A stretch of DNA of 64,000 bases from the NCBI GenBank assembly GCA_031284315.1, contig JAITAB010000063.1, positions 1 through 64,000 of the forward strand. Direction: 5' to 3'. The translations under genes and the position numbers were made by a program. Shown piece after piece: positions 3,155 through 35,319 of the stretch. How positions within the stretch are numbered: the stretch's first letter is position 1; each line of letters begins with the position of its first letter. This stretch comes from Campylobacteraceae bacterium (GTDB lineage Bacteria; Campylobacterota; Campylobacteria; Campylobacterales; Campylobacteraceae). The notes beneath the pieces were generated by a model. That model was not told the DNA's origin and did not search any database. It was given only the letters and a program-made list of their open reading frames with translations.

Positions 3155-3160
3155 CGCCCC

Positions 3161-4791: not shown

Positions 4792-4839
4792 TTATTTACC
4801 TCCTTTTTGTTTTCGCGCGCTTTGATAATGCTTACTGCG

Positions 4840-6036: not shown

Positions 6037-6078
6037 GAAAACCTCCTTTAATATTTATTTGTCTAATACCGTTTCGCA

Positions 6079-6963: not shown

Positions 6964-6989
6964 CTCCTTTTTGTAAGATATTGCCGTAA

Positions 6990-8330
6990 TTACTCTCTAC
7001 CCTTAAACTTTTCAGCAGGTTTAAAGCGTTTGATGAGTTCGTCAAAGCGTTCGCCGGTTTCATTTTCTATATACCGCTCTATCGCCTCTTTTGTCTGCAA
7101 ATTCAAAATAAGAGAAGGTTCTGACTGGAAGCGAAAAAACGCTGAGCCGGCGCGTTCATTTACCGCCGCGGCGGGAAATAGAGCCTTCAAATGGTCGGCA
7201 TATTTTGCATCGCCGAGATAAAGTCTGGTAGCCTCAGTCGCTCCATAACCGTGATTTGCCCAGTGCGCGTCAAACTGCCGCGTAATCCACTCCGCGTCAA
7301 ACGCGCCTTTATGCTCTTTTGCGGCTTTTACCAAAGCGGCTGCTTGAATAGAGACATTTTGCGCCCCTTGACCCGCAATAGGGTCAAATATAATTGCGCT
7401 GTCTCCAAGAGCCGCGACAGGCTTACCGCTTTTTGTAAAGCCGACCGCTTTGCGCACATGCGGCGTAACCGCGCCTTTAAGCCATGAGTGCGGATCGCTT
7501 TCAATAAGCGTAAATTTCGCAATCTCTTTTGCGTCTTCAGGGAAATAATCGCGGAAAATTTCATTGAAAATTCGCAGTGCAGATGCCGCATCATCAGCTT
7601 CTTCAAAACGCCGACGCCAATCGCTTTTTGGCGTAGCAAAGCCTAAAATACTCCAGCTATGCCCTATGTCTTTGTGCAGAATGCCGCCGACAAATATCTC
7701 GCCCTGCTCTTCGTTAGAAGTGAAAAGATTGTGCTTCCATCCGACTTTGCTTCGGTAATCAAACGCTTTGCTATCGTAAGGCAGTCCGGCGATATTTACC
7801 GTCAAAAGATATCTTTGCGGCTCGCTATATACGGTGCGGCTTTTATCTATTTCAAATATATCTATAAGTCCGCCTTTGCCCGTAGCCACAAGCGTCAAAT
7901 CATTTTTGCCCGCGATAATATCAAGCTTATCCGAATTGACCTCTTCTGTTATGAATGTTCCGCCGCGCTCGATAAATCGACCTATTCTGTCGTCCGCTCT
8001 CAAGCGCGGATCCACCGCCTGCGCCCTGAAATAGCGAAAATCCACGTCAAACGATAAAAGCGGCGTTTTATCGGGATTGTATCCGCGTACCGAAAACCCG
8101 TCGGTAAAGCTCTCTTCGCCGTAAAGATTTTCAATGATTTGCGCATCTGCCTCCTGAGAAGGCTTGCCGAAATATATCGCCGTGCCGGTAGCGGGAACAT
8201 CATCGCGCAAAGCTTTACGGCTTTTATCGCTGTAAAGCGTTACTTCAAATCCCGCGTCAAGCAGTCCCAAAGCCGCGCTTGAGCCTGCAATACCTGCGCC
8301 GATAACGGCTGCTTTTCTATTTGCCGACAT
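6990..8330 (-). CDS. FAD-dependent monooxygenase, styrene/indole monooxygenase (StyA)-like
   Basis: N-terminal AAVIGAGIAGSSAALGLLDAGFEVTLYSDK FAD motif; GDSAIIFDPIAGQGAQNVSIQAAAL. Confidence 0.75.
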   Translation of the reverse strand: MSANRKAAVIGAGIAGSSAALGLLDAGFEVTLYSDKSRKALRDDVPATGTAIYFGKPSQEADAQIIENLYGEESFTDGFSVRGYNPDKTPLLSFDVDFRYFRAQAVDPRLRADDRIGRFIERGGTFITEEVNSDKLDIIAGKNDLTLVATGKGGLIDIFEIDKSRTVYSEPQRYLLTVNIAGLPYDSKAFDYRSKVGWKHNLFTSNEEQGEIFVGGILHKDIGHSWSILGFATPKSDWRRRFEEADDAASALRIFNEIFRDYFPEDAKEIAKFTLIESDPHSWLKGAVTPHVRKAVGFTKSGKPVAALGDSAIIFDPIAGQGAQNVSIQAAALVKAAKEHKGAFDAEWITRQFDAHWANHGYGATEATRLYLGDAKYADHLKALFPAAAVNERAGSAFFRFQSEPSLILNLQTKEAIERYIENETGERFDELIKRFKPAEKFKGRE

Positions 8331-8514
8331 GTTTTAACTCCTTTAAATATTTTAAATATCTGTCTGCCTGTTCTTTGCCTCTATGTAAATCCGCGCCGAA
8401 TCTCGCACCCGTTAGACCTTTTTGCCTGTTAAGCTTTTTTGCCTCGCCTGCTGCGGCTATGTTTGCGATAATGGCTAAGACAGCCTCCATTTGGTTAATT
8501 TCAATATTCCTCAT
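8317..8514 (-). CDS. Small protein of unknown function (65 aa)
   Basis: Complete ORF between an nlpA-like gene and the styA-like gene, same strand, minimal overlap. Confidence 0.45.
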   Translation of the reverse strand: MRNIEINQMEAVLAIIANIAAAGEAKKLNRQKGLTGARFGADLHRGKEQADRYLKYLKELKHVGK

Positions 8515-8525
8515 GTTAAGCTAAC

Positions 8526-9410
8526 TCAATTATCAGAAACGGGCGTTAAAACGCCATGTACCAACGGGTCGTCTGTCGTTTCAAGATATTTTCTCAATCT
8601 CGAATCGGCAAATACCTGCTGTAATTTTTTAATCTGCGGATCATTCAAAAATTTCGTTCCTATAACTAACTGAGAAGCGAAAGTTCTTGGAGGCGGAGGA
8701 AAAAGTATCCCTTTTTCCCGCGGGATTTTGCCTGCGTCAAATTGCAGCACATATCCCACCGCCGCATCAACAGAGTCTAAAATACGCGGTAAAGTCAGCA
8801 AATCAAGCTCTTTAAACTGAAAATTGCGCGGATTTGACACGACATCGCGGATTTTAGCAACTCTTGGCTCTACATTTTCATTTAAGCCTATCAACCCCTC
8901 GCGCTGTAAAAGCCACAAAGCCTGCCCTTGATTTGCTCCGTCCACAGGCACGACTACTACGGCGCCATCAGGCAATTCGTCAATGCTTTTATGTTTGTCC
9001 GAATAGATGCCAAATCCCCACTGAAATATAGGAAAAACAGGCGTTAAATCAAAGCCGTTAGCATCCACTACCTGTTTTAGCCACCATTGATGCTGATAAA
9101 TAGTCGCGGCGTATTGTCCGTCAGCTACGGCGCGGTCGGCTTGTACGGGATCTTGCAGACCGACAGCTTCTATTTTCAAGCCGTAATCAGGCGCGATATT
9201 TTTCGCAACATATTGAATGATACGCTCCTCTCCCGCCATGGCAGGCTCAAAATGAACTTTCAAAGTGTCTGTGAAAACAACTGTATCGGAAGCTCTTGAT
9301 TTAACATAAAAAACAGCCGCAGCTATAATAACCGCCGCAATTAAAACGGCGATAATCCATCTAAGCGTCTTTTTGTTTTTTGTCTGAAATTGCACATTTG
9401 TCTTTGACAT
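8526..9410 (-). CDS. NlpA/MetQ-like binding protein with N-terminal TM anchor
   Basis: Paralog of 6079-6963; TM segment WIIAVLIAAVIIAAAVFYV; VPVDGANQGQALWLLQREGLIGL. Confidence 0.8.
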   Translation of the reverse strand: MSKTNVQFQTKNKKTLRWIIAVLIAAVIIAAAVFYVKSRASDTVVFTDTLKVHFEPAMAGEERIIQYVAKNIAPDYGLKIEAVGLQDPVQADRAVADGQYAATIYQHQWWLKQVVDANGFDLTPVFPIFQWGFGIYSDKHKSIDELPDGAVVVVPVDGANQGQALWLLQREGLIGLNENVEPRVAKIRDVVSNPRNFQFKELDLLTLPRILDSVDAAVGYVLQFDAGKIPREKGILFPPPPRTFASQLVIGTKFLNDPQIKKLQQVFADSRLRKYLETTDDPLVHGVLTPVSDN

Positions 9411-9429
9411 GGTTGCTCCTTTTTGAATT

Positions 9430-10311
9430 TTAATTTTCCGAAACAGGCGTTAAAACGCCTTGTACAAGCGGGTCGTCCGTAGTCGCAAGATACTCTTGTA
9501 TTCTTGGGTCGGCAAACGCCTCTTGAAGTTTCTTTATATACGGATCGTTTAAAAATTTCGTTCCTATAACCAGCCGCGAAGCAAAAGTCCTCGGAGTTTT
9601 AGGGAAAAGTATCCCTTTTTCCCGCGAGATTTTGCCCGCGTCCCATAGCGAAACGTATGTTATTCCTGCGTCTATGGAATCCAAAACGCGCGGCATAGTC
9701 AGCAAATCAAGCTCTTTGAACTTAAATTTGCGCGGATTATCAACGATATTTTTGATTTTTGCGGTTTTCGGCTCTATATTTTTATCCAGACCAATCAACC
9801 CCTCGCGCTGTAAAAGCCACAGCGCCTGTCCTTGATTGGCTCCGTCTATTGGTATGGCTATCACCGCGCCCTCAGGCAGCTCGTCAATGCTTTTATATTT
9901 ATCCGAATATATGGCAAAACTCCACTGAAACACTTCTACCGTAGGCGTTAACTCAAAACCGTTAGCTTCCACGACTTGTTTTAGCCACCATTGATGCTGA
10001 AGAATAGTGGCGGCAAATCCTCCCTCCGCAACTATCCTGTTTGCTTGCAAATCGTCTTGCAGCGCGACAGGCTCCACTTTGATACCGTAATCCGGCGCGA
10101 TATATTCGGCGATATATTTCAATATCTTCTCCTCGCCCGCATAAGAAGGCATATGATGGACTTTCAAAGTATCCGTAAAAACGACTGTATCCGACCTTTG
10201 AAATTTAAAGTAAAAAAACAGACCGACTACTGCCGCCAGCGCTATGATACCCAAAGCAATCCATATACTCTTTCTGTTTTTTTTCAATTGAAAATTTGTA
10301 TTTTTTGACAT
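9430..10311 (-). CDS. NlpA/MetQ-like binding protein with N-terminal TM anchor
   Basis: Paralog of 8526-9410; TM segment IWIALGIIALAAVVGLFFYF. Confidence 0.8.
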   Translation of the reverse strand: MSKNTNFQLKKNRKSIWIALGIIALAAVVGLFFYFKFQRSDTVVFTDTLKVHHMPSYAGEEKILKYIAEYIAPDYGIKVEPVALQDDLQANRIVAEGGFAATILQHQWWLKQVVEANGFELTPTVEVFQWSFAIYSDKYKSIDELPEGAVIAIPIDGANQGQALWLLQREGLIGLDKNIEPKTAKIKNIVDNPRKFKFKELDLLTMPRVLDSIDAGITYVSLWDAGKISREKGILFPKTPRTFASRLVIGTKFLNDPYIKKLQEAFADPRIQEYLATTDDPLVQGVLTPVSEN

Positions 10312-10329
10312 ATATAACTCCTAAAAAAA

Positions 10330-11010
10330 TTAATGACTTGTTTTACGGACAAGGCAATCGCCTATCCATTGAACTATTTGAATACTCACAATCAAAATGA
10401 TAATCGTTGATATCATGATATTGTGGTCAAATCTTTGATAGCCGTAAACAACGGCAAGATAGCCTATACCTCCCGCGCCTATCGTACCTGCGATAGCCGA
10501 ATACTCAATCATTGAAATGGTATTGAGCGTTACGGCGGCGATAATGCTCGGGAACGCTTCGCTAAGCTGGGCATGGACGATAATCTGCAGCGGCGAACCG
10601 CATGAGACAAGTCCGACGGCGTTTACTTCGCGCGGCAAGTCGCGCAGGGCATTTTCCACAAGCCTTGCGAAAAACGGCGTTCCCGCTATGACCATAGGCA
10701 CAACCGCCGCAGGAATACCTATAGTCGTTCCTGTGATGTATTTGGTAAACGGGATAATAGCCGCCATCAACACCAAAAACGGTAAAGAGCGCCCGATATT
10801 CACAAACCAACTCAAAACGCCGTTAAACCGCCGATGCGGAAACAGTCCGTAATTTGAAGTATTGAACAGCAATATGCCGGTTACGCCGCCGATGACAATA
10901 ACAAGCGCCATAACAACGCCTACCATTGTTAATGTTTCCAAATAAGCCGGTATTAAAAGCGTATGCACTTCCCCCCATGGAGTGTCGTTTCCGAGAACTG
11001 TCGCGCTCAT
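10330..11010 (-). CDS. Methionine-type ABC transporter permease (MetI family)
   Basis: Multi-TM permease with MetI-like NALRDLPREVNAVGLVSCGSPLQIIVHAQLSEAFPSI; 4-nt overlap with the metN paralog. Confidence 0.88.
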   Translation of the reverse strand: MSATVLGNDTPWGEVHTLLIPAYLETLTMVGVVMALVIVIGGVTGILLFNTSNYGLFPHRRFNGVLSWFVNIGRSLPFLVLMAAIIPFTKYITGTTIGIPAAVVPMVIAGTPFFARLVENALRDLPREVNAVGLVSCGSPLQIIVHAQLSEAFPSIIAAVTLNTISMIEYSAIAGTIGAGGIGYLAVVYGYQRFDHNIMISTIIILIVSIQIVQWIGDCLVRKTSH

Positions 11011-12044
11011 GCCGTACCCCTTTCATTGTTTTCGTCAAAGTCAATATTGTTTTTGAACTCCGCATGCAGTCCGATATGTTTCAACGCGTTGACGACATGT
11101 ATGATATCCACTTTGTGCGCCTGCAAAAACTCAAACCCCACAAGCGCGCGTCCGTAAATAATTCCGCCGCTTATCTGCTCTATATTCGCGCCGAGCAGAT
11201 GAATATTCGCTTTCAACCGCTCGCTTAATATCTGCGACCAATTTGACGGAACATTTGCGCTGTAAGTCAGCTCTGCAACAAGGTGGCGTTTATTGAACGC
11301 TTCGGCAACTCTTAGCGAGACAAGCTGTCTGCCTATATTGGATTTTGGATTTGAAACAAGCTCTTGAACCCGTCCTTGCTCAACTATCCTGCCGTCTTTT
11401 ATCGCGGCGATAGAGTCCGCGATATTACGCACCACATCCATTTCATGCGTAATTAAAACGATAGACAACTCAAACTCATCGCGCAGCTTTTTTAAAAGAC
11501 TTAAAATTGTTTCTGTCGACTGCGGGTCAAGTCCGCTTGTCGCCTCATCGGATAAAAGCACCTGCGGGTGAAGCGCAAGCGCGCGGGCTATACCTATGCG
11601 CTGCTGCTGTCCGCCGGAGAGCTGAGACGGATAATATCCGCCTTTATCAAGTAAACCGACCGCATTTAATAACTCTTTAACTCTTTTCTCTACATCCGAT
11701 TTGACAACGCCAAAATACTCCAAAGGCAGCGCGATATTCTGCGCCGCCGTTTTTCTGTGAAGCAGGGCTGATGATTGAAAGATAGTCCCTATCGCGCGGC
11801 GTTCATTACGCAAAGCCTCTCCCGAAAGAGAGGAAAGGTCTTTGCCGTTCACTAAAACAGAGCCGCTGGTGGGGCGTTCTAATAGACTAATGCACTTGGA
11901 AAGCGTAGATTTCCCCGCGCCGCTTGGACCCACAATCGCCGTTATAGAGCGGTCAGGCACAGTCAAACTAATATCTTTTAGTATCTGCGCCTCGCTTTTA
12001 TTCGGCAGTATGTAGCTTTTTGACAAATTTTTTATCTCAATCAT
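11007..12044 (-). CDS. Methionine-type ABC transporter ATP-binding protein (MetN family)
   Basis: Walker A GPSGAGKSTLS, LSGGQQQRIGIARAL, VLLSDEATSGLDPQ, C-terminal NIL-like region. Confidence 0.9.
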   Translation of the reverse strand: MIEIKNLSKSYILPNKSEAQILKDISLTVPDRSITAIVGPSGAGKSTLSKCISLLERPTSGSVLVNGKDLSSLSGEALRNERRAIGTIFQSSALLHRKTAAQNIALPLEYFGVVKSDVEKRVKELLNAVGLLDKGGYYPSQLSGGQQQRIGIARALALHPQVLLSDEATSGLDPQSTETILSLLKKLRDEFELSIVLITHEMDVVRNIADSIAAIKDGRIVEQGRVQELVSNPKSNIGRQLVSLRVAEAFNKRHLVAELTYSANVPSNWSQILSERLKANIHLLGANIEQISGGIIYGRALVGFEFLQAHKVDIIHVVNALKHIGLHAEFKNNIDFDENNERGTA

Positions 12045-22045: not shown

Positions 22046-22435
22046 TTATTTTTTTAACATAACCAAAATAACGCCGCTTGAGATTAAAATATTTTGTTCT
22101 TTTGTTTCAAAATAGATTTCGCTTAATGCGGAATTTGGCAAACTGTTTTTTACATGTATGTTAAATTTTGTCCCTGCAGGTTTTTTATGCAAGACAAGAT
22201 TTGTGCAGGAGAGCAGATAACCCTCGTTTTCGTTTTCGCTTAAAGCCGCGCTGCTTTGAGCGGCGGCTTCCATTATCATGCCGATCGTGGGCGGTTTTGG
22301 AAATTCCACCGACACGACAGCCCAATTTTCGCCTTTATTCAAAACTTCTTTGACAAAAAGTATCGGCGGCTTGTGAGGAAGCTTTAACACTCTACGCCCA
22401 CTATCGCCGTTGGGTTTGCATTTAAATATTTGCAA
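22046..22435 (-). CDS. Hotdog-fold 3-hydroxyacyl-ACP dehydratase-like protein (ApeI/FabZ-like)
   Basis: KPPILFVKEVLNKG..., MIMEAAAQSSAALS hotdog helix; within the KS/ACP cluster. Confidence 0.6.
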   Translation of the reverse strand: MQIFKCKPNGDSGRRVLKLPHKPPILFVKEVLNKGENWAVVSVEFPKPPTIGMIMEAAAQSSAALSENENEGYLLSCTNLVLHKKPAGTKFNIHVKNSLPNSALSEIYFETKEQNILISSGVILVMLKK

Positions 22436-23028
22436 AGGCTCATAAGTTTTGCTATGCTTGAAACAAAATTGGGCAGAGGTTTCAAGTTTTCATACAATAT
22501 ATCGGGTTTTTTATCGCTTGATTTTACCATTAACCCGACCGCGCTCTCAAAAGCCGCACCGCAGCCGTTTAACGCACGAAGTTCGTCAATGCCGAAGCTC
22601 TCGCACACGGCGCAAAATATGATGTCTTTGTCCATTGCTTTTACGGCGGCTGTCTTTAAAACATTATCGCCTGTTTTGCCGCCATTGGATACGCTCATGA
22701 TTTCCGAAGTATTGTCATTTAAAATTGAAAGATATGACGCAGGCGCATTATAAACAGAATTTTGAAAATCCGTAGGACTCGGCGGAGATTTGGCAAATAC
22801 GCTTTTTAATATGGATATGCTCTCCCGCAGTTCGCCGTAACTGCTGCCGTAAATTATTCTTTGATTTTTAACTTTAAGCATGTGCGCCAGATAAATAAGC
22901 ATTTTAGCGTTTCTTGTCAAACGGCGGCGCACTATCATGTTGGGCACAAGCTCTTTTTCCCTCAAATCCTCTATCTTTTCAGCATCAAAAAGCGAATGAA
23001 AAGATTGGATTTCAAGAGATATTATCAC
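22384..23028 (-). CDS. Ketosynthase-like protein (chain-length-factor type, no evident catalytic Cys)
   Basis: IIYGSSYGELRESISIL... NAPASYLSILNDN, SVSNGGKTGDNVLKTAA; truncated KS-like fold. Confidence 0.6.
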   Translation of the reverse strand: MIISLEIQSFHSLFDAEKIEDLREKELVPNMIVRRRLTRNAKMLIYLAHMLKVKNQRIIYGSSYGELRESISILKSVFAKSPPSPTDFQNSVYNAPASYLSILNDNTSEIMSVSNGGKTGDNVLKTAAVKAMDKDIIFCAVCESFGIDELRALNGCGAAFESAVGLMVKSSDKKPDILYENLKPLPNFVSSIAKLMSLCKYLNANPTAIVGVEC

Positions 23029-24173
23029 TGTTTTACGACCGCTTCAAGCAGAACAAACGCCGTTGAAAATCTGCCGCTTTCAGGTATAAAACAGAGTATT
23101 TTGCTGCCGCTTTTAAGAGGTTTTATTCTCGCAAATTCTTCTAAAATAATATAAAACGATGCCGCGCCTGTGTTGCCTTTCTCATAAAGATTGGTAAACC
23201 ACTTATCATAGCCTATCTCAAATCCCGCTTTTTTCAATCCTTCATAAGTTTTATCTTTAAAATAATGCGATGAGTAATGCGGTAAAAAATAGTCTATATC
23301 GTTTGCGCTTAACGCTCTTTTTTTTACAATTTCTCTAACAGGCTTTATAACAGTATATTCGACTATATTCTCATTTAACAGTCTCACATCTTGTTTGATG
23401 CTGAAAATTGAGAGTTTTTGCCTCTCGTCCTGCGAATATGTAAGATACCCGTTAAATCTGCCCTCATCGTCTATATGCGCGCCTGCGTACATGCAAACAG
23501 GCATCTCTCCCGCGTACGAGACTTGCTCTATCCAATTGATTTTAAAAGATACGCCGCTTTCGTTTGGTCTTGAAGAGAGCCACAATGCGCCTGCTCCATC
23601 GGAAAGCATCCATCGTAGAAAGTCTTTTTCAAACGATATCTCGGGGTTTTTTTCAAGCGCTTCAAGCTTGAAAGCGCTTTCGGCTTCAAAATTTTCTTTG
23701 CGCAAAAGCTGTGAAGCCGTTTCGCTGCCCACCGCAACAGCGTTTCGCGTCAATCCCAAAGCTACGGACATATAAGCGTATTTCAATGCCATAATACCGC
23801 TTACGCAAATCCCTGCCGTCGAAACTGCCTCCATAGGCTTGGCTTTCAATTCCCCATGCACCATTAAAGCGTGGTTCGGCATAGTTTGGTCAGGCAGGCT
23901 CGTACCGCACGCCAAAAGCTCCAAATTTTCAAGGTCTGCGCCTTTCGCTCCAAGCTCCTCTACCGCCAAAGCCGCAAGTTTTGCATTTGTGAAAAGCAAT
24001 TTACCGTCTTTAAAAACATAATGCCTGCTTTTTATACCATTGCTTTTCAACACTATCTTTCTTGCACGGGAACGCATACCGCCTATAAATCCTAAAACCT
24101 CTTCCATTTCATCATTATTTACAGGCTCGTTGGGCATCACTGCGCTTAGGTAATTTATAAAAACTTCATTCAT
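23025..24173 (-). CDS. darB: KASIII-like 3-oxoacyl-ACP synthase (DarB-like)
   Basis: AVSTAGICVSGIMALKYAY active-site region; FLPHYSSHYF; NLYEKGNTGAASFYIILEE; follows the DarA-like gene. Confidence 0.65.
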   Translation of the reverse strand: MNEVFINYLSAVMPNEPVNNDEMEEVLGFIGGMRSRARKIVLKSNGIKSRHYVFKDGKLLFTNAKLAALAVEELGAKGADLENLELLACGTSLPDQTMPNHALMVHGELKAKPMEAVSTAGICVSGIMALKYAYMSVALGLTRNAVAVGSETASQLLRKENFEAESAFKLEALEKNPEISFEKDFLRWMLSDGAGALWLSSRPNESGVSFKINWIEQVSYAGEMPVCMYAGAHIDDEGRFNGYLTYSQDERQKLSIFSIKQDVRLLNENIVEYTVIKPVREIVKKRALSANDIDYFLPHYSSHYFKDKTYEGLKKAGFEIGYDKWFTNLYEKGNTGAASFYIILEEFARIKPLKSGSKILCFIPESGRFSTAFVLLEAVVKQ

Positions 24174-25113
24174 TATTTTCCTTAAAAATTTTAGAACCGG
24201 AAGGTTCTTCATAGTATGCTTTCTGTTTTTTTAGTTTTTTAATCATCAGCGGATAAAAAAGTATCCTAAAAAGAAGGGTAAAAGGTACGACAGTTATTAT
24301 CATCAATACCAAAAAAAGCAGATAAATGCAAAGAAAAACGCGCCTTATTTTGCTTTTCGGCTGCCCGATTTTTCTCAAAAATTTTCCCCATATCAGAAAA
24401 CTTCTATGTCCTATCTTTTCGCTCATGATAAGTTTTTCATTTACATTGACGGCGCCAAGCCCTTGAAGCAGCGGCTTTTTGCTCTTTTCAAGGTTATTTT
24501 TCAAAGCGCTGCTTATAGCCCGTCCGAATCTTGCGCTCTTTTCCATATCGCTTTTTTTAATACCTGCGCTTGAAAAAAACCAAAACTTCTCTTTTTTGCC
24601 TGTAAGCAGCCATCTTGGAGTTGTTATAAATGTTTCAAGCGAATTTCCGCCGTCTATTAACGCTATATTATCGCATAAAATTCCGCCGTTTTGCGCTATA
24701 AGGCGTTTCATTTTTTCCTGCGCGGTAAGCCACATGTTACGGCATGCGATAAAGGTTATAACGCTTTTGCCCTCTATCCATGCTTTTGCTTCCATGCTAT
24801 GTAAAAAACTTGACATCGGAAGCGAAGGGGATAAAAACCAGACTTGATAAGCCAAAATAATTAAATCAAACTCTTCGTTTTTATCTATGCCGAACGGTTC
24901 AAGCGGTATTTTATCGCAATAAACGCTTTCGGGAAAAACGCTTAAAAAGTCCAAAATATCCCATGGAAAAGGAAACGGCGCGCGCGGTTTCAAACTCAAA
25001 TCCGTAACGGATACGCTTTTGTCGCTTAAAAGAGGAGAAATGCAGTATTTTATCGCATCATCAAGCTGTCCGCTTTGCGAATAGTGTACGACCAAAACCT
25101 TTTTGTGTGGCAT
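24166..25113 (-). CDS. darA: DarA-like dialkylresorcinol condensing enzyme candidate
   Basis: N-terminal flavodoxin-like KVLVVHYSQSGQLDDAI; C-terminal TM; immediately upstream of the KASIII gene; resemblance recalled, not searched. Confidence 0.55.
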   Translation of the reverse strand: MPHKKVLVVHYSQSGQLDDAIKYCISPLLSDKSVSVTDLSLKPRAPFPFPWDILDFLSVFPESVYCDKIPLEPFGIDKNEEFDLIILAYQVWFLSPSLPMSSFLHSMEAKAWIEGKSVITFIACRNMWLTAQEKMKRLIAQNGGILCDNIALIDGGNSLETFITTPRWLLTGKKEKFWFFSSAGIKKSDMEKSARFGRAISSALKNNLEKSKKPLLQGLGAVNVNEKLIMSEKIGHRSFLIWGKFLRKIGQPKSKIRRVFLCIYLLFLVLMIITVVPFTLLFRILFYPLMIKKLKKQKAYYEEPSGSKIFKENNE

Positions 25114-25209: not shown

Positions 25210-26103
25210 ATGTTACATATAAAAAATATCAGCAAAAATTACGGCTCTTTTGCGGCATTACGGAGCGTTTCATTGAAACTTCCCGACAGCGGAATTTTTG
25301 CGCTTTTAGGCATAAACGGCGCCGGTAAAACTACGCTTATGTCCATTCTTTGCGGCATTATAAAAGCAGATAGTGGAGAGATATTTTATAATGAAACGCC
25401 ATATTTTGAAGCTCTAAAAAAAGACGCTTCGCTCTGTTCTTTAACGCCGCAGGAGTTTGCATTTTATCCGACTTTAAGCGTTAAGGAAAATGTGGATTTT
25501 TTTTCGCAAATCAATACTCTCTCTTCGAAAAAACGCAAAGAAATGGTTGATTTTGCGCTTAATATCTGCGCTTTGGAAGGATATTTGGAAAAACGCGCCG
25601 CAAATCTTTCAGGCGGCTTAAAAAGAAGATTAAATCTTGCCATAGGGCTTTTAAACGACCCGAAAATTCTTTTTTTGGACGAACCCACAGTCGGCATTGA
25701 TCCGAAAACCAGAGAATTTATACTGAATTCCATAAAAAGCCTCTCTCATGAGAGGCTTATCGTATATACTTCACACTACATGAACGAAGTTGATTTTTTG
25801 GCGGACGAAATAGCCGTTATAGACGAGGGCAGGATATTGGCGGCTTTTAAAAACGGCAGACAGGATAGAGTTTTGGTATTGGAGTTAAAAGAACATGATA
25901 AAACAAGCGTTAAAACGCTAAACGAATTCATGCCCTTTACCGAATGCGGCGGTTTTTTGCAAAGCGGTGCGGCAAATGAGCAAACTCTTTCAAATTTATT
26001 GGAATTCGCGAAAAAGCGCGGCATGGAACTCAAATCCGTATCGCTTTCGCCCGTGTCGGCGCAAACGCTATTTTTAAGCTTAACAAATAAAGATATAAGA
26101 TGA
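25210..26103 (+). CDS. ABC transporter ATP-binding protein (export type)
   Basis: Walker A GINGAGKTTL, NLSGGLKRRLNLAIGL, ILFLDEPTVGIDP. Confidence 0.92.
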   Translation: MLHIKNISKNYGSFAALRSVSLKLPDSGIFALLGINGAGKTTLMSILCGIIKADSGEIFYNETPYFEALKKDASLCSLTPQEFAFYPTLSVKENVDFFSQINTLSSKKRKEMVDFALNICALEGYLEKRAANLSGGLKRRLNLAIGLLNDPKILFLDEPTVGIDPKTREFILNSIKSLSHERLIVYTSHYMNEVDFLADEIAVIDEGRILAAFKNGRQDRVLVLELKEHDKTSVKTLNEFMPFTECGGFLQSGAANEQTLSNLLEFAKKRGMELKSVSLSPVSAQTLFLSLTNKDIR

Positions 26104-27227
26104 TGCGAATTTTTACCGCGCTTTTAAAAAAAGAGTTTTTCATAGTTTTCAGGGATTTGCACGCGCTTTTGGCTCTGTTTTTACTGCCGTCAATTTTCAT
26201 ACTCATCATGTCTTATGCTTTAAAAGATGCGAACAGCGCTTCAAATATAAAATGCGTCTATTATGCGGACGATAACAATCCCGAAGAGATTGTGAAAAAT
26301 TTTGAAAAAATGATGGAAAACCTTCAAAATTTCTCCTGCCGAAAAACGAACGACAAGAGTTTCAAAAGTGATATAACGCTATTTATCCCAAGCGGATTTT
26401 TTGAGAGTTTTCAAAATGACATAGATAGTGATTTGCGGGCGCGCATAGATTATATTCCTACTCTAAACAACGGCGCTATACAGCTTTTTGAAGCGCTTTT
26501 AAAAGAGAGAATAATTATGCTTTTTACCGCTGAGAGCAAATACATGCCCATATTCGTAACAAATCTCCAAAAGCCGTTTATAGAGTCTCACACTTCAAGC
26601 CGCAAAATACCAAACAGCGTAGAGCAGAGCGTGCCTTCATGGATAGTATTCGCCATGTTTTTTGTACTGATACCGTTTTCTACCGTTTTTATCGTGGAAA
26701 AAAGGCAAGGCACATACAGAAGATTAAAAAGCATGGGATTAAATACTTTTTTATTTTTCGCGGCAAAAACGCTTGTGTATAATATCATCAATCTATTTCA
26801 AGGCATATTATTGCTGTTTGTGGGGGTATATATCGTCCCGTTTCTTGGGCTTGAGGGATTGCATATAGGAGATATTTTGCCTCTTTTGGCGGTTTTATAC
26901 GCGCTTTCATTTGCCGCTATCGGTTTTGCGCTGTTTATAGCCGTAATTTGCAAAAGTACAGCTCAAGCGGTAATCACGGGCGGCATTAGCAACATACTCT
27001 TAGGCGCAATAGGCGGCATCATGGTGCCTAAATATATTATGCCGCCTTTAATGCAGCAAATAAGCGTTATTTCGCCGATGTCATGGGGATTTGACGCATT
27101 TATACAACTGTTTTTATATAAAGCCGGAATTGACAAAATCGCACAAGACTTGCTGTTTTTATTGCTTTTTGGAATAATTATGTTTATAATATCGCTCTTT
27201 ATTTTTACAAGGAACAGCGATGATTGA
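26100..27227 (+). CDS. ABC-2 type transporter permease
   Basis: N-terminal TM, large soluble domain, C-terminal TM block; IPFSTVFIVEKRQGTYRRLKSMG; overlaps the ATPase gene. Confidence 0.9.
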   Translation: MMRIFTALLKKEFFIVFRDLHALLALFLLPSIFILIMSYALKDANSASNIKCVYYADDNNPEEIVKNFEKMMENLQNFSCRKTNDKSFKSDITLFIPSGFFESFQNDIDSDLRARIDYIPTLNNGAIQLFEALLKERIIMLFTAESKYMPIFVTNLQKPFIESHTSSRKIPNSVEQSVPSWIVFAMFFVLIPFSTVFIVEKRQGTYRRLKSMGLNTFLFFAAKTLVYNIINLFQGILLLFVGVYIVPFLGLEGLHIGDILPLLAVLYALSFAAIGFALFIAVICKSTAQAVITGGISNILLGAIGGIMVPKYIMPPLMQQISVISPMSWGFDAFIQLFLYKAGIDKIAQDLLFLLLFGIIMFIISLFIFTRNSDD

Positions 27228-27486
27228 TTTAGCGGCTCTAAAATTAGAATTAAAAGAGCTTATCATAAAAGAGAGCGGCAAAGAGTATGATCCGCGCGAC
27301 ATACAGGATAACGAACCGTTGTTCGGAGGAGAAAGCATACTTAATTTGGATTCTCTTGACGCGCTTCAAATATCTGTTGCCATTCACCACAAATACAACA
27401 AAAAGCTTAACGACAGCAAAGAGGCAATGAGGGCATTAGCCAATATAAACACGCTGGCAAATTTTATATCCGAAGAGAACAATTGA
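27220..27486 (+). CDS. Acyl carrier protein
   Basis: GESILNLDSLDALQISVAI: phosphopantetheine DSL motif. Confidence 0.88.
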   Translation: MIDLAALKLELKELIIKESGKEYDPRDIQDNEPLFGGESILNLDSLDALQISVAIHHKYNKKLNDSKEAMRALANINTLANFISEENN

Positions 27487-28541
27487 GGCGTATATATATA
27501 GAACGATACGGTATTTGCAGCGCTTTGGGGGCGGATTTGCCCTCTCATGTACGCGCTTTGGGCGATGAAAATTTAACTCCTCCCACAGAATTTACGCATG
27601 CATATGAAGGGAATGTTTTATATTATAAATCAAAGGGCGATATTGACGGATTGATAAAAGGCATAGGCAAGTTGCCCGAAAATACGACTCTTTTTATTGG
27701 TTCGTCCTCTCTCGGCACACATTTAAATGAACAAAACTACATTGAAGAGGGCATAAAATATTTGGGCTATGATCTAGGAACGCATGAAATATGCGAAAAA
27801 CTTGGGATAAAGCCATGCTATTACATTTTCAATACCGCCTGCACCTCAAGCGCAAACGCCCTTATATACGCTGCAAGAATGATAAAAGAAGGCATAATTA
27901 ATAATGCTTTGGTAATAGGTGTTGAGGTGCAGAATATGTTGAGTTTATGCGGTTTTATGTCGCTCGGATTAATAAGCAAAAATGGGATAAAACCGTTTGA
28001 CAAAAATAGAAGCGGTATCGTTTTGGGCGAAGCATGCGGTTTTGTGCTTTTGTCATCGCAGGAGAATTTGTGGGAGTTTGCGGACGGCGAGATTTTAAAC
28101 GATATTTCAAATGTTACAACTCCATCAGCAGACGGCAAAATACTTCAAAACATTATAGAAAAAACGCTTTACAGCGCGGAAGTAAAAACTTCGCAAATTG
28201 ACTTGATAAAGCTTCATGCCACAGCCAGCGACAGTAACGATATATCCGAAAACAACGCCATTTGTAAAGTTTTCGGCAAATCTATCCCGTTATGCGTTGC
28301 ACTCAAAGGCTATATAGGGCATACTTTGGGCGCTTGCGGCGTATGCGAACTTGCTTTGCTGCTCGGCGCTTTGGATAACGGTTTTGTTCCTAAAAGTCTT
28401 GGATTTGAGACAAAAGATGAGAAATTTGACATAATTCCCACAACGCAAAAAAGTGCGTGGAAAGGCAGATATGTACTGTTTAACTATCTTGCTTTCGGCG
28501 GAAACAGCGCGGCTTTTTTGATTAAAAGAGGTGAAAATTGA
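27483..28541 (+). CDS. Beta-ketoacyl-ACP synthase (FabF-like), intact active site
   Basis: NTACTSSANALIYA, LHATASDSND, YIGHTLGACG Cys-His-His layout. Confidence 0.88.
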   Translation: MRRIYIERYGICSALGADLPSHVRALGDENLTPPTEFTHAYEGNVLYYKSKGDIDGLIKGIGKLPENTTLFIGSSSLGTHLNEQNYIEEGIKYLGYDLGTHEICEKLGIKPCYYIFNTACTSSANALIYAARMIKEGIINNALVIGVEVQNMLSLCGFMSLGLISKNGIKPFDKNRSGIVLGEACGFVLLSSQENLWEFADGEILNDISNVTTPSADGKILQNIIEKTLYSAEVKTSQIDLIKLHATASDSNDISENNAICKVFGKSIPLCVALKGYIGHTLGACGVCELALLLGALDNGFVPKSLGFETKDEKFDIIPTTQKSAWKGRYVLFNYLAFGGNSAAFLIKRGEN

Positions 28542-29335
28542 TACTTTCGTCATCATTTTTATCATTTTCGCCAAAAGCAGGACTATGCGGATGGGAAGAG
28601 ACATTAAATAGTTTGACGCAAGCCAAATTCAGGCGTGCGGATAGATTTTCGCATGCTGTGTTGGCTGGCGCGCTATCTTGTTTAAAGCAGTACAATTTGC
28701 AAGAGTTTTCACTCTATTTCGGCACCTCAAATGGCAGTATTGAAAGCGTCAAAAACTCTCAGGATAATATATTTCAAAATCAATTTCCAATGCCGTTTGC
28801 ATTTATCAATACTCTAAGCAGTACGCCGCTATTTTTTTTGCTGCAATATTTAAATATACAAACTGCCGCCATCAGTATCGCACACTCGCAATTCGCATTT
28901 GAAAATGCTCTTAGCCTCGCGCTTATTGATTTAAAACAAAAACGAATAAAAAATGCGCTTGTGGGTGTTTGCGATGTCTGGTGCGAGTCTGTTGCGCGCT
29001 CATGCAAGATAGATAATGAAGCGTACGAATTTTCTGCATGGATAAGTTATGAGTATGACGAGAGAGACTGTGTGAAATTTTTCGGCAATTTTAATGAAAC
29101 ATTAAAATTTATCAAGCGGTTTAAAACGGAACAAGTTTGCGTTTCGCCGAATTTTCCACAACATGAGTTAGAGGAGCTTCAAAAGACGGCGCAAGTTTGC
29201 CGAAGCGATACTGCTAAAACTGCGGCAAATTGCTCCGCTGCTGTTATATGCGAACATTTTGCAAACTCCAAAATGCCGCTTTTTTACATCGGATATGATA
29301 AAAGAGGCGGCTACTCTTTCGTAAACATTAATTAA
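28538..29335 (+). CDS. Ketosynthase-like protein lacking the active-site Cys (chain-length-factor type)
   Basis: KS-like N-terminal fold; AAISIAHSQFAFENALSLAL where TACTSSAN is expected. Confidence 0.55.
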   Translation: MILSSSFLSFSPKAGLCGWEETLNSLTQAKFRRADRFSHAVLAGALSCLKQYNLQEFSLYFGTSNGSIESVKNSQDNIFQNQFPMPFAFINTLSSTPLFFLLQYLNIQTAAISIAHSQFAFENALSLALIDLKQKRIKNALVGVCDVWCESVARSCKIDNEAYEFSAWISYEYDERDCVKFFGNFNETLKFIKRFKTEQVCVSPNFPQHELEELQKTAQVCRSDTAKTAANCSAAVICEHFANSKMPLFYIGYDKRGGYSFVNIN

Positions 29336-29811: not shown

Positions 29812-30669
29812 TCAATGACCCTCTTCGTCTTTCCAAAAATCGTATAAGTTAAACCATTGGTCTGGGGCGGCAAGGATAACTTTTTCATAGGTTTGGGCAT
29901 ACTCTTTGACCATATTTTCGATATTTGTACTCAATTTTATTTTTATATACTCTAATTTATAAGTCTGTTTTTTTATGTAAGTAATAAAAAACGCTATCAA
30001 TGGAACTTGCGCTTTTTGAGCGATTTCAAACGGTGTTTTGTTAAATTCAGCCAAAGAGCCGAAAAAATCCACGCTTATTGTATGTTTTGGATTGTTTGCC
30101 CTGTCGCCCATCATAGATACTACCTCTTTTTCCATCAAAGCTTCGGCTATTTTTATGGAAGCTTCAAGTTTTGACACATGCGCCAAATCAAGTATATGGA
30201 TATTTGTCTTTTGACCCTCTCTAAGTCTCTCTTCTATAACTTTTATATCTTCTTTTATCACCTCTTGCATGACAATATTTACCCTTAAATTATCTATCCT
30301 TAAAAGGCTTGGCGTAATAGACCATCCGCCAAAATGTGAAAAGAGTATAACGCCGCCGTTCCTCAGCTCTTTTGCTATCTCATCTCTATCTACTATCAGT
30401 TTATATGCAGAAGTATCGCATTTTGTGATAAATCTGTCTGTCATAACAACGGCAAATTTTCTTAAATGCTCAAAGTAGCGCCATTGCATATATTTTATGC
30501 CTATTTTTTTATAGTATAGCTTCAACGCGCATCTTGTATTGGAAGCTTTCAAATAATAGATAAATGTTATGGGATAAAGCAAAATGAAAAACGACATATA
30601 TCCGAAATGACTATAAATCCATAATGCCAAACGAATACTCCAGCCGCTGCCTCTTTGTTTCGTATGCAC
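29812..30669 (-). CDS. LpxL/HtrB-like (LPLAT) acyltransferase
   Basis: ILFSHFGGWSITPSLL; MMGDRANNPKHTISVDFFG; APE-type gene context. Confidence 0.75.
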   Translation of the reverse strand: MHTKQRGSGWSIRLALWIYSHFGYMSFFILLYPITFIYYLKASNTRCALKLYYKKIGIKYMQWRYFEHLRKFAVVMTDRFITKCDTSAYKLIVDRDEIAKELRNGGVILFSHFGGWSITPSLLRIDNLRVNIVMQEVIKEDIKVIEERLREGQKTNIHILDLAHVSKLEASIKIAEALMEKEVVSMMGDRANNPKHTISVDFFGSLAEFNKTPFEIAQKAQVPLIAFFITYIKKQTYKLEYIKIKLSTNIENMVKEYAQTYEKVILAAPDQWFNLYDFWKDEEGH

Positions 30670-31374
30670 TTAAATAAATCCTTTCAGCAGCAAAATCCTC
30701 AAAGGCAAAAGCCTTATATGCACCCAGATAATAGACATGGTATCGCGCCATTTTTTAAAGTGGCTTATTCTCTCTTCGGCTTTCGGATAGTAACACTCCA
30801 CGCTTGCTTCTACTATTTTCCGCTTTAACCACGCATGCCGTACCAAAACCTCCATTTCATAATCAAACTTTATCGTATATGTAGGCAGCTGCAAAATAGA
30901 AACAGGGTAGAGCCTGAAGCCCGAAAGCGAATCGGTAATTTTACAGCCTGTATCCAGCGATGCCCAAAAATTACTTATCAAACGCCCTATTTTAGAGCCT
31001 TGCGGCACATTATCCGTATTAAAATCTCTTGAACCTATAACTATGGTTTCATCTCCATCATTTACGGCATCTGCAAGCTTATAAATCTCGCATGGCAAAT
31101 GCTGCCCGTCCGCATCCATACTGACGAAATACGAATATCCAAGCTCTTTTGTTTTTCTACAGCCGCTGATAAGAGCCGCGCCTTTGCCGAAATTGCGCTC
31201 ATGCGTTACAACATGGGTTTTTTCATCGCATTTCAAAACATCTTTAATGCTTACATGCGAACCGTCGTCCACAACAATAACTTCATATCCCAACTGCCGC
31301 ACAGCTTTTACAATATTGAATACGGTATCGTTATTTAGAGTAGGTATCACAACTGCCGCGCGGTATCTATCCAT
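30670..31374 (-). CDS. Family 2 glycosyltransferase
   Basis: AAVVIPTLNNDTVFNIVKAVRQLGYEVIVVDDGS; GKGAALISGCR; SMDADGQH. Confidence 0.88.
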   Translation of the reverse strand: MDRYRAAVVIPTLNNDTVFNIVKAVRQLGYEVIVVDDGSHVSIKDVLKCDEKTHVVTHERNFGKGAALISGCRKTKELGYSYFVSMDADGQHLPCEIYKLADAVNDGDETIVIGSRDFNTDNVPQGSKIGRLISNFWASLDTGCKITDSLSGFRLYPVSILQLPTYTIKFDYEMEVLVRHAWLKRKIVEASVECYYPKAEERISHFKKWRDTMSIIWVHIRLLPLRILLLKGFI

Positions 31375-31513: not shown

Positions 31514-32602
31514 TTGTATTTTAACTTTAAACCAAAAGAAAAGAGCGCTTTAGACGCTCAACATGAAGCTCAAAAAATCGCTTTTGCGCCGATTATTTTC
31601 CAATGTGTAAGAGTTTTGAAAGAGTGGGGGATATTAAAACTTTTATATGAAAACGACAAATCGGGACTAAGCCATGAAGAGATTTGCCAAGAGAGCCAAA
31701 AAAGCGTATATTCTATAAGTTTGTTGTTAGAAAGCGCTTTAAGCGCCGATATAGTTGAATTAAAAAATGACCGTTATTTTTTAAGCAAAGTCGGTTATTT
31801 TTTGCAAAACGACCCCATGACTGTCTCCAATTTTGATTTTAACCATTATGTAAATTATCTTGGAATGTACCATTTGGACGAAGCGATGGAGCAGGGAAAG
31901 CCTGCGGGATTAAAATATTTCGGCGATTGGCAGACTATTTATCCCGCTTTATCAAAATTGCCTTCAAAAGTAAAAGAGTCGTGGTTTGCATTTGATCATT
32001 TTTATTCGGATGGGGCATTTGAAGCGGCTTTGAAAATTTTAAAAACGCTTAACCACAAAACCGTGCTTGACATCGGCGGCAATACGGGCAAATTTTCACT
32101 TCTTTGCGCAAAAACGCTAAAAGATTCCACTATCTGCGTAGCGGATTTACCTGAACAGATTGAGTCTGCGCAAATAAACATAAAAAAGGCGCTTTTGCAA
32201 AAACAAATAACGACTTTTGCTATTGATATTTTAAGCTCTTTGCCATTGCCCAGAGGATATAATATCGTCTGGATGAGTCAATTTTTGGATTGTTTTTCGG
32301 AGGAAGACATACTTAAAATACTCACAAAAGTTTATGAAAGCCTTGAGTATGATTCGAGGGTTTGTATACTGGAGCCGATTTGGGACAGGCAGCGCCTTGA
32401 AACTTCGGCTTTTTGTATTATTAATACATCACCGTATTTTACGGCAATTGCAAATGGTAAAAGCAGAATGTTCAAATGGGATAATTTGAAAAACCTAATA
32501 GAAAAATCATCATTAGAAATTGAATGTGTGCATGACAATTTAGGTTTCGGACACTCGTTGATTATATGTAAAAAAATAAAGGAAAATAATGGTAACAAGT
32601 GA
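31514..32602 (+). CDS. Class I SAM-dependent (O-)methyltransferase
   Basis: TVLDIGGNTGKFSLLCAKT SAM motif; N-terminal winged-helix/dimerisation-like region; WMSQFLDCFSEEDILKIL. Confidence 0.82.
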   Translation: MYFNFKPKEKSALDAQHEAQKIAFAPIIFQCVRVLKEWGILKLLYENDKSGLSHEEICQESQKSVYSISLLLESALSADIVELKNDRYFLSKVGYFLQNDPMTVSNFDFNHYVNYLGMYHLDEAMEQGKPAGLKYFGDWQTIYPALSKLPSKVKESWFAFDHFYSDGAFEAALKILKTLNHKTVLDIGGNTGKFSLLCAKTLKDSTICVADLPEQIESAQINIKKALLQKQITTFAIDILSSLPLPRGYNIVWMSQFLDCFSEEDILKILTKVYESLEYDSRVCILEPIWDRQRLETSAFCIINTSPYFTAIANGKSRMFKWDNLKNLIEKSSLEIECVHDNLGFGHSLIICKKIKENNGNK

Positions 32603-32840
32603 AAATTTAAAGGCGCTTATAATAAAAAGCTTGAAGCTGGAAGATATCGGTATAGACGATATTAGGGACGATATGCCTCTTTTCGGTTCGGATGGGCTTG
32701 GGCTTGATTCTGTTGATTCTATAGAGCTTGTATTGACAATAGAACGCGAATATGGCGTTAAAATAGGCAGGAACGAAAACTATCAAGAGATTTTCAGCTC
32801 AATATCTGCGCTTTTAAATTTCATTAATGCCCAAAAATAG
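32589..32840 (+). CDS. Acyl carrier protein
   Basis: DGLGLDSVDSIELVLTIEREYGVKI: phosphopantetheine DSV motif. Confidence 0.88.
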   Translation: MVTSENLKALIIKSLKLEDIGIDDIRDDMPLFGSDGLGLDSVDSIELVLTIEREYGVKIGRNENYQEIFSSISALLNFINAQK

Positions 32841-33936
32841 AGTTTTTATAAATTATTTTGACGCTCTCTCATGTGCGGGATTAAATGAGTGCGAATTGTG
32901 GCGGAATATATTGGAGCAAAAAAGCGGCATTAGAATGTATGAAGATTTTTTGCCCAACTCAAAAGCCGTCATTGGAAAGATAAACTCTCCCAACTCTTTT
33001 AAAAAGCTGCTTTTGGCACAGACAGAAAAAGCTATCAAACAAAGCGGCATAAATACGACAAATTGCGCGCTTTTTATAGGCTCTTCCGTAGGCGGCATGC
33101 AAAATACCGAAAAAAGATTACAAAACGGCGCGGTTTTTGCGGATATAGACCCAAATTCTCATACGATAGAAGCTATCAAAAATGTGCTTTCCCCTCATTT
33201 CTCTTTTAAAGAGAGTTTCGCCTTTTCCACAGCTTGCACTTCAAGCGCAAACGCTATCGGTTTTGCATACGAATGTATAAGCAAAAATATATACGAAACA
33301 GCTTTAATAATAGGCGCGGACGCTATTTGCTTTACTACCGTATGCGGTTTTGACGCGCTTGGGGTTTTGTCGCATGAAGTTTGCAAGCCGTTTTGTCATA
33401 CAAGCGGCGGCATGAATGTGTCAGAAGGTATAGGCATACTCGTTTTAAGCGGCGCAAAAACTAAAAATGTTGTTGAGATTTTAGGAGTAGGGTACAGCTC
33501 GGACGCTTACCACATGACGCATCCAAAACCTAACGGAATAGGCGCGTTTGAAGCCATGAGCCGCGCTTTGGAAAATTCGGGGCTAAAACCGGCGCAGATA
33601 GATTACATAAACGCTCATGGCACAGGAACAAAAGCAAACGATACTACCGAAGCGGAAGCGATAGTTTCGCTTTTTCGCAAAACTCCCCATGTGAGTTCCA
33701 CAAAAAATATCATAGGACATACATTGGGAGCCGCAGGCGCGCTTGAAGCTATTGTCGCATGTAAAGCTATAATAGAAAATATCATACCTCCAAACGGCGA
33801 AATAATGCAAAGTGTGAACGAAGAGTGTAGTTTTGCCCCGACTTTTCCGTTAAGACAAGAGGTCAATTTTGCCATGAGCAACTCTTTTGCGTTTGGAGGC
33901 AATAATACCTCTTTGATATTTGGTAAAGTCTTATGA
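32827..33936 (+). CDS. Beta-ketoacyl-ACP synthase (FabF-like), intact active site
   Basis: STACTSSANAIGFA, NAHGTGTKANDTTEAEA, NIIGHTLGAAGALE. Confidence 0.92.
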   Translation: MPKNRVFINYFDALSCAGLNECELWRNILEQKSGIRMYEDFLPNSKAVIGKINSPNSFKKLLLAQTEKAIKQSGINTTNCALFIGSSVGGMQNTEKRLQNGAVFADIDPNSHTIEAIKNVLSPHFSFKESFAFSTACTSSANAIGFAYECISKNIYETALIIGADAICFTTVCGFDALGVLSHEVCKPFCHTSGGMNVSEGIGILVLSGAKTKNVVEILGVGYSSDAYHMTHPKPNGIGAFEAMSRALENSGLKPAQIDYINAHGTGTKANDTTEAEAIVSLFRKTPHVSSTKNIIGHTLGAAGALEAIVACKAIIENIIPPNGEIMQSVNEECSFAPTFPLRQEVNFAMSNSFAFGGNNTSLIFGKVL

Positions 33937-34334
33937 AAATCAAAGATACGCCGCAAGAGATTAATAAAACTTTGGACGGAGCAAAAAAAGCCCTCTATGC
34001 GCAAGACGATAACGGCGAATATAAAATAATCGCTTCTGCAGGCTGGAAAGTTGAAGAAATGGCTACTTTGGCGGCTATTGAAGAGTTAAAAGAGCAAGAA
34101 AAAGCGGCTTTTAAAGAATATCTTGAAGGCAGACTTTCGCCGCTTCCTTATTACATGTATCAAAAAAGAATGGATATTTCAATTCTTGCTTGCACGGCAG
34201 GCATGTGCAAATGGCGCGTTAAAAGGCATTTTAAGCCTTCCGTTTTTAAAAAATTAAACAATAATATTTTGATGCGTTACGCAGAAGCGCTGGATATAAA
34301 AATAGAGGATTTGACGCACAATGACCGAATTTAA
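33933..34334 (+). CDS. Small conserved-looking protein of the KS/BtrH cluster
   Basis: Overlaps upstream KS and downstream BtrH-like genes; LSPLPYYMYQKRMDISILACTAGMCKWRVKRHFKPSVFKKL. Confidence 0.6.
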   Translation: MKIKDTPQEINKTLDGAKKALYAQDDNGEYKIIASAGWKVEEMATLAAIEELKEQEKAAFKEYLEGRLSPLPYYMYQKRMDISILACTAGMCKWRVKRHFKPSVFKKLNNNILMRYAEALDIKIEDLTHNDRI

Positions 34335-35319
34335 ACACTCTCATGCCGCCCATTGCGAAAGCGGGACGGTTTCATCTTTATTAAGATACGGCGGTTTTGA
34401 TATAAGCGAAGCCATGTGTTTTGGTATCTCAAGCGCGCTTACTTTCGGCTATTTTCCGTTTATCAAGATAAACAATCAGCCGTTGATTACTTACAGAATG
34501 CCTCCGCGCCATATATTGAAAGGCGTGGCAAAAAACTTGGGCGCAAAATTTGAAATCAAAACTTTCAAAAACGACAGGCTCGGCGCCGTGAGGGCTTTGG
34601 ACGAAGAGCTTGAAAAAGGCAGGATAGTCGGCGTGCAAACATCTGTATTTTATCTGCCTTATTTTCCCAAAGATATGCGTTTTCATTTTAACGCGCATAA
34701 TCTCATAATATTTAAAAAAGAGGGCGGTACCTATTTTGTAAGCGACCCCGTGTTTGATTATATAAATACCATAAACGAAGAGGATTTGACAAGAGCCAGA
34801 TTTGCCAAAGGCGTGCTCGCACCGAATGGCTCTTTTTATAAGCTTGTTTCGCCGCCAAAAAATGTAAATTTTGAAAAAGCCATAAAGCAAGCCGTATCCA
34901 AAACCGTATTTATGATGCTGAAAACTCCGCTTCCGATTATCGGCGTTTGGGGCATGAAAACGCTTGCAAAAAAGATAGCTTCTCTGAAAACTGCAACGGA
35001 GGGCGATAAACATTTTGCAAAGATGTTTATCACTCAAGTTATTAGAATGCAAGAAGAGATAGGCACGGGCGGGGGCGGATTTAGATTTATGTACGCTTCG
35101 TTTTTGCAGGAGAGTTCAAAACTTTTAAATTCCTCTTTGCTGGCTGAAGCTTCTAATATCATGAGCGAAGCGGGAGACAAACTCAGGTTTTTTGCATTAA
35201 AAGGCGCAAAAATCGTAAAAAATCAAGATGAGTTTAATCCTGAATATCTATCGCGGCTTTTTAAAGAGTGCGCGCTTTTGGAAAATAGCGCGTACAAGCT
35301 GCTGCGGAAGTTAAAATAA
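34321..35319 (+). CDS. BtrH N-terminal-domain acyltransferase-like protein
   Basis: HSHAAHCESGTVSSLL (Cys region), FHFNAHNLIIFKKEGGTYFVSDPV (His/Asp region). Confidence 0.7.
   Translation: MTEFKHSHAAHCESGTVSSLLRYGGFDISEAMCFGISSALTFGYFPFIKINNQPLITYRMPPRHILKGVAKNLGAKFEIKTFKNDRLGAVRALDEELEKGRIVGVQTSVFYLPYFPKDMRFHFNAHNLIIFKKEGGTYFVSDPVFDYINTINEEDLTRARFAKGVLAPNGSFYKLVSPPKNVNFEKAIKQAVSKTVFMMLKTPLPIIGVWGMKTLAKKIASLKTATEGDKHFAKMFITQVIRMQEEIGTGGGGFRFMYASFLQESSKLLNSSLLAEASNIMSEAGDKLRFFALKGAKIVKNQDEFNPEYLSRLFKECALLENSAYKLLRKLK

Follow-up and report, generated by a model that had tools for sequence, protein, structure and literature searches.

Flexirubins, which are polyene-resorcinol esters chemically (PMC3992019), are classic marker pigments, and the enzyme responsible for joining their halves has only been guessed at in the literature consulted. 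The locus described here raises the question of whether this step belongs to DarH, a BtrH-related papain-fold acyltransferase of 332 residues encoded on the forward strand at 34321..35319 of the analysed window, the 64,000-nucleotide stretch that forms the first part of a Campylobacteraceae contig. DarH probably takes the polyene from an acyl carrier protein (ACP) onto its predicted nucleophile, Cys12, and passes it to a resorcinol hydroxyl, joining the pigment halves; we favour this role because DarH goes with both halves and its fold supplies a mechanism. NCBIfam already has a named DarH family, of which the present protein is, judged by its profile score, a further member. What is new here is stronger comparative support for the role of DarH and a new operon arrangement.

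The DarH protein and its predicted fold

The darH reading frame is intact, with an ATG start and no internal stops. The protein scores 435.2 bits (E-value 1.4e-130) against NCBIfam NF053550, the BtrH-related acyltransferase DarH model, for which the curated equivalog cut-off is 300 bits. It contains two Pfam domains, BtrH_N at residues 11–143 (1e-44, 152.5 bits, gathering cut-off 29.7) and DUF4872 at residues 154–327 (3.9e-43, 147.6 bits, gathering cut-off 28), which follow each other in the order expected for BtrH proteins and cover nearly the whole length. The initial annotation had called this protein BtrH-like and had read a Cys-His-Asp layout from its motifs, and both points are borne out: the motifs are present, HSHAAHCES at residues 6–14, FNAHNL at 123–128 and SDP at 141–143, and they hold the predicted nucleophile Cys12 together with His126 and Asp142. 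A chance or frameshift origin of darH was ruled out by the E-value of 1e-130 and by intact copies in relatives.

Cys12, His126 and Asp142 are unchanged in each of the 26 aligned homologues. A further 31 loci, drawn from Gammaproteobacteria, Bacteroidia and Campylobacterota and partly from the same genomes as the 26 homologues, have them as well; 29 of these loci were gathered by a motif that includes the cysteine, and the other two were aligned separately. The three residues are invariant in homologues of three phyla. Their equivalents are kept in two unrelated BtrH-domain proteins that are not DarH, and these share with DarH a GTGG-x-FR loop. The motifs FHFNAHN and RMQEEIG, on the other hand, look specific to DarH as far as these sequences go.

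The AlphaFold2 model of DarH has a mean pLDDT of 88.3 and a pTM of 0.89. A Foldseek search of the PDB with this model gave full-length matches to AziU3 (TM-score around 0.7), CtaG (0.68–0.76) and CcbD (0.63–0.69), with E-values of 1e-7 to 1e-10 for CtaG and CcbD and the best value, 2.6e-12, for AziU3/AziU2. PDB sequence searches with DarH and with two other BtrH proteins returned no relative, and the fold search alone found some. The full-length likeness to CtaG and CcbD agrees with the papain-like, carrier-protein-dependent acyltransferase that had been anticipated from the sequence. When matched by position, Cys12, His126 and Asp142 of DarH have nearly the same residue numbers as Cys11, His128 and Asp144 of CtaG; structures of the CtaG variants C11A, H128A and D144N are deposited in the PDB, and the CcbD deposits include complexes with a carrier domain. 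A C39-type peptidase role for DarH was considered and dropped, as C39 peptidases match a part of the protein only, while CtaG and CcbD match both domains.

The darH operon and the surrounding pigment cluster

darH comes last in a run of five overlapping forward-strand genes, which encode a methyltransferase, an ACP, a ketosynthase, DarG and DarH; the overlaps are 14, 14, 4 and 14 nucleotides, in this order. The FlxJ-like methyltransferase (31514..32602), a Methyltransf_2 protein that scores 454 bits against NF053543, under the equivalog cut-off of 560, probably acts on the polyene head ring. It is followed by ACP2 (32589..32840; PP-binding, 1.5e-07; PRK09184-type) and the β-ketoacyl-ACP synthase KS2 (32827..33936), which is recognised by NCBIfam ketosynthase models and has the cysteine motif TACTSS. 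That darH ends a methyltransferase-ACP-ketosynthase run had been noticed in the initial annotation, but the small gene darG (33933..34334; NF053536, 164 bits against a cut-off of 70; synteny) had been omitted; it adjoins darH in nearly all loci examined. The best fold match of DarG is NGO0477, a weak one, and HicB3 is also among the matches. The model of DarG is predicted to contain an N-terminal β-β-α element and a C-terminal Xre-type helix-turn-helix, and DarG may have a regulatory rather than an enzymatic role.

The genes for DarB and the DarA homologue are located 9–11 kb from darH on the reverse strand. darB (23025..24212) encodes a ketosynthase/cyclase of the StlD/DarB family (NF005293, 560 bits against a cut-off of 450). 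The overlapping darA homologue (24166..25113) is flavodoxin-like and shares 50% identity with the protein in the DarA position in Poseidonibacter; it has no Pfam match and is named for its place beside darB. On the same strand are found the Ketoacyl-synt_2 protein that serves as polyene marker (22384..23028; PF13723, 7.7e-19) and, after it in relatives as well, a small protein without a family match (22046..22435), for which synteny suggests a dehydratase-like role.

The ATPase (25210..26103) and the ABC-2 permease (26100..27227) of an ABC transporter, which belong to the darGH module, are encoded on the forward strand, followed by ACP1 (27220..27486; PP-binding, synteny) in the position of Azoarcus darC and the β-ketoacyl-ACP synthase KS1 of the dialkylresorcinol (DAR) module (27483..28541), the transporter and KS1 genes being assigned by family match and synteny. 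The next protein (28538..29335, forward strand) is ketosynthase-like, lacks the active-site cysteine motif, has no Pfam or NCBIfam match and is syntenic with KS1 in relatives; it is presumably chain-length-factor-like. On the reverse strand, a lipid A/lysophospholipid-type acyltransferase (Lip_A_acyltrans, 29812..30669; PF03279, 4.4e-15) and a GT2-type glycosyltransferase (30670..31374; family match and synteny), the latter conserved in polyene clusters, are candidates for a lipid-anchoring role.

The window stops at base 64,000 of the 75,710-base contig. Past it, at about 66.7–73.4 kb of the contig, are genes for a dehydratase-like protein, an aromatic ammonia lyase, a ketoreductase, a membrane protein, a LolA-like protein, an MMPL-type exporter and an AMP-ligase. 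Three of these, the genes for the membrane protein, the LolA-like protein and the exporter, match no family and take their names from gene order and from resemblance to other aryl-polyene clusters. The lyase, ketoreductase, exporter and ligase genes are 31–38 kb from darH and 3–9.4 kb beyond the end of the window. The ammonia lyase scores 349 bits on the FlxA tyrosine-lyase model, which has a cut-off of 700. In a separate comparison, this lyase (contig 66988–68517) is 81–83% identical to Arcobacter-group homologues over the 205–231 residues available, against mostly 25–60% for the other cluster genes.

The genome contains both the DAR and the polyene genes by which flexirubin and arcuflavin clusters are recognised, namely those for DarB, the DarA homologue, two ketosynthases, the PF13723 protein, two ACPs, the ammonia lyase, the ketoreductase and the AMP-ligase. 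The cluster is predicted to encode a flexirubin/arcuflavin-type pigment, with parts of the polyene and dialkylresorcinol pathways together, as is known from flexirubin and arcuflavin (PMC3992019, PMC3949708). Genes for such a hybrid pathway are present in several Campylobacterota genera.

Two other features of the contig were observed. Many MetQ-like lipoproteins, two MetNI-type ABC transporters and adjoining flavin oxidoreductases, as read from the open reading frames, form a probable sulfur-compound uptake cluster at 1375–12044 of the window, and a CRISPR-like array with at least 23 copies of a repeat of about 30 nucleotides, at a spacing of about 66 bp, occupies contig positions 74172–75710 and reaches the contig end.

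The closest relatives of DarH, mostly at 83–86% identity, are from metagenome-assembled Campylobacteraceae, and the isolate names suggest that these come from termite guts. Relatives at 46–50% identity are found in the Arcobacter group, Sulfurospirillum, Sulfurovum, Porticoccaceae, a beta-proteobacterium and Algoriella. Nearly all distant relatives have the order darA-darB-darG-darH, usually with the ABC, ACP1 and KS1 genes alongside. Only in the lineage of the window is darGH parted from darAB and joined to the methyltransferase-ACP-ketosynthase operon; a few Bacteroidia show a separation of a different kind. ACP2, which the initial annotation had named as the loaded ACP for an assay, is a possible donor, being one of two candidate polyene donors, but its place next to darH is lineage-specific and darGH lies beside darAB in other genera; adjacency therefore cannot name the donor.

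Distribution of DarH and its proposed joining step

DarH occurs almost only in bacteria with both polyene and dialkylresorcinol genes, and follows the pair rather than either set alone. The same sampled genomes were searched for DarH, DarB and PF13723. Among 321 gammaproteobacterial genomes, DarH is found in 15, all of which have DarB and all of which have the polyene marker. The marker itself is present in 77 of the gammaproteobacterial genomes, 59 of them without DarB, and none of these 59 polyene-only genomes has DarH. In the Bacteroidia (217 genomes), DarH is found in 37 and DarB in 36 of these, the exception being a DarH locus on a contig of 3,991 bases; a contig end truncates DarB in one further genome. 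Four of the Bacteroidia DarH genomes have no PF13723 match, a marker that scores weakly in this group. The 150 Campylobacteraceae genomes include 10 with DarH and 8 with DarB, and of the two exceptions one locus stops at a contig edge inside darA and the other genome has a completeness of 59%. The Fisher values are 4e-23 for Gammaproteobacteria, 2e-36 for Bacteroidia and 8e-12 for Campylobacteraceae, figures in which independence is overstated, the genomes being related.

Bacteroidia with DarB and no intact DarH comprise one lone DarB, one on a 5.5-kb contig and one in which neither DarH nor the ABC ATPase is intact; in the last, the broken genes lie at about 2850–6390 of the locus, and darA/darB on another contig look intact. 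Three Gammaproteobacteria have DarB without DarH, and there darA/darB stand alone, with no darG, ABC, ACP or KS gene within about 8 kb or more. Both halves do not by themselves require DarH, since these three have the polyene marker at another place in the genome; in them the two products may remain unjoined.

Mobile elements were searched as well. DarH was not found on viral contigs with the two short patterns used, and the matches listed for plasmids include only other BtrH-domain proteins, at identities up to about 30%. The Streptomyces plasmid darA/darB loci likewise yielded no DarH-type match, the neighbourhood being inspected in one record. DarB-like ketosynthase genes were also seen on plasmids of Bacteroides, Phocaeicola, Prevotella and Pseudoalteromonas; in the one neighbourhood inspected, that from Prevotella, neither darA nor darH is annotated next to the gene.

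The presence of DarA and DarB in the window, the polyene genes on the contig and the co-occurrence of DarH, DarB and the polyene marker agree with the polyene-resorcinol pathway role put forward in the initial annotation, and the co-occurrence favours a resorcinol acceptor over a lipid acceptor and over a role in resorcinol assembly. In the proposed mechanism, the finished aryl-polyene chain would move from an ACP phosphopantetheine onto Cys12 of DarH. His126, oriented by Asp142, would activate a phenolic hydroxyl on the dialkylresorcinol that DarA and DarB produce, and this hydroxyl would attack the acyl-enzyme to yield the polyene-resorcinol ester. No assayed or deleted DarH was found in the sources consulted.

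DarH might instead act within resorcinol assembly, moving or hydrolysing a fatty acyl or β-ketoacyl group between ACP1 and DarB. The position of darG-darH after darA-darB, usually beside the ABC, ACP1 and KS1 genes in other genera, is consistent with such a function, as is the identification of ACP1 as the likely DAR carrier by comparison with Azoarcus darC (PMC3949708). However, polyene genes are present in every one of the 15 gammaproteobacterial DarH genomes, and darA/darB function without DarH, which makes this role unlikely: they are found without darH in the three Gammaproteobacteria and on Streptomyces plasmids, and DarA and DarB of Chitinophaga alone gave a resorcinol in a heterologous host (PMC3992019).

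It is more doubtful still that the halves are joined by an ATP-dependent FlxW-type ligase, with DarH as an accessory protein, for example a proofreading thioesterase or a partner in export for the ABC transporter encoded next to it. The ligase-like FlxW was assigned the joining step in the 2014 flexirubin paper (PMC3992019), and darH forms a tight module with the ABC genes, both being broken in one genome that keeps darA/darB. However, the single AMP-ligase found on the contig, in a search that a distant ligase could escape, belongs to the ammonia-lyase block, a location fitting starter activation.

Least probable is that DarH passes the polyene, or some other acyl group, to a lipid or a glycolipid as anchor, the lipid-headgroup acceptor of the initial annotation. 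E. coli-type aryl polyenes are anchored to membrane lipids (PMC8253772), and a lipid A-type acyltransferase and a glycosyltransferase are encoded in the cluster, but the polyene-only genomes need such anchoring and yet lack DarH, and ApeD/ApeJ have been proposed for this task in E. coli (PMC8253772).

Comparison with known systems

The DarH proteins of NF053550 are of the same family and have the same invariant residues, and the relatives share the darA-B-G-H context, while in the present locus darGH is split from darAB and ends another operon. In the arcuflavin cluster of Azoarcus sp. BH72, the DAR part includes darE, a BtrH-like peptidase gene next to darD, darB and darA, as listed in 2014 (PMC3949708); this organism is from another phylum, and the likeness is taken from the published description. 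The gene named darH in the Azoarcus paper is a PilT-domain gene, unlike the darH described here (PMC3949708).

BtrH of butirosin biosynthesis has the BtrH_N domain in common with DarH and performs ACP-dependent acyl transfer. Its acceptor is an aminoglycoside, whereas the neighbourhood of DarH is that of a polyene/resorcinol pathway; no aminoglycoside genes were recognised around darH, which sets it apart from BtrH in the strict sense. AziU3/AziU2, a fold relative, is reported as an aziridine synthase and hence has another chemistry; since it is the top fold match, acyl transfer cannot be concluded from the fold alone.

CtaG (closthioamide) and CcbD (celesticetin) resemble DarH in fold over the full length and, by position, in the Cys-His-acid residues, at about 13% identity, and both use carrier-bound acyl groups. 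CcbD, with a Cys-His-Glu triad, performs a carrier-protein-dependent ping-pong transfer (PMC12945683), and for CtaG a transfer of p-hydroxybenzoate off its carrier has been proposed (PMC6772006). The product of CcbD is an amide, as is the proposed product of CtaG, in which the p-hydroxybenzoyl group would go to a β-alanine chain, whereas DarH, as the enzyme joining polyene and resorcinol, is expected to make a phenol ester. On balance, we lean towards DarH being an ester-forming (phenol-acylating) branch of a fold family whose better-known members make amides and, across three phyla, the general enzyme for joining the halves of polyene-resorcinol pigments, the uncharacterised ones of the Campylobacterota included.
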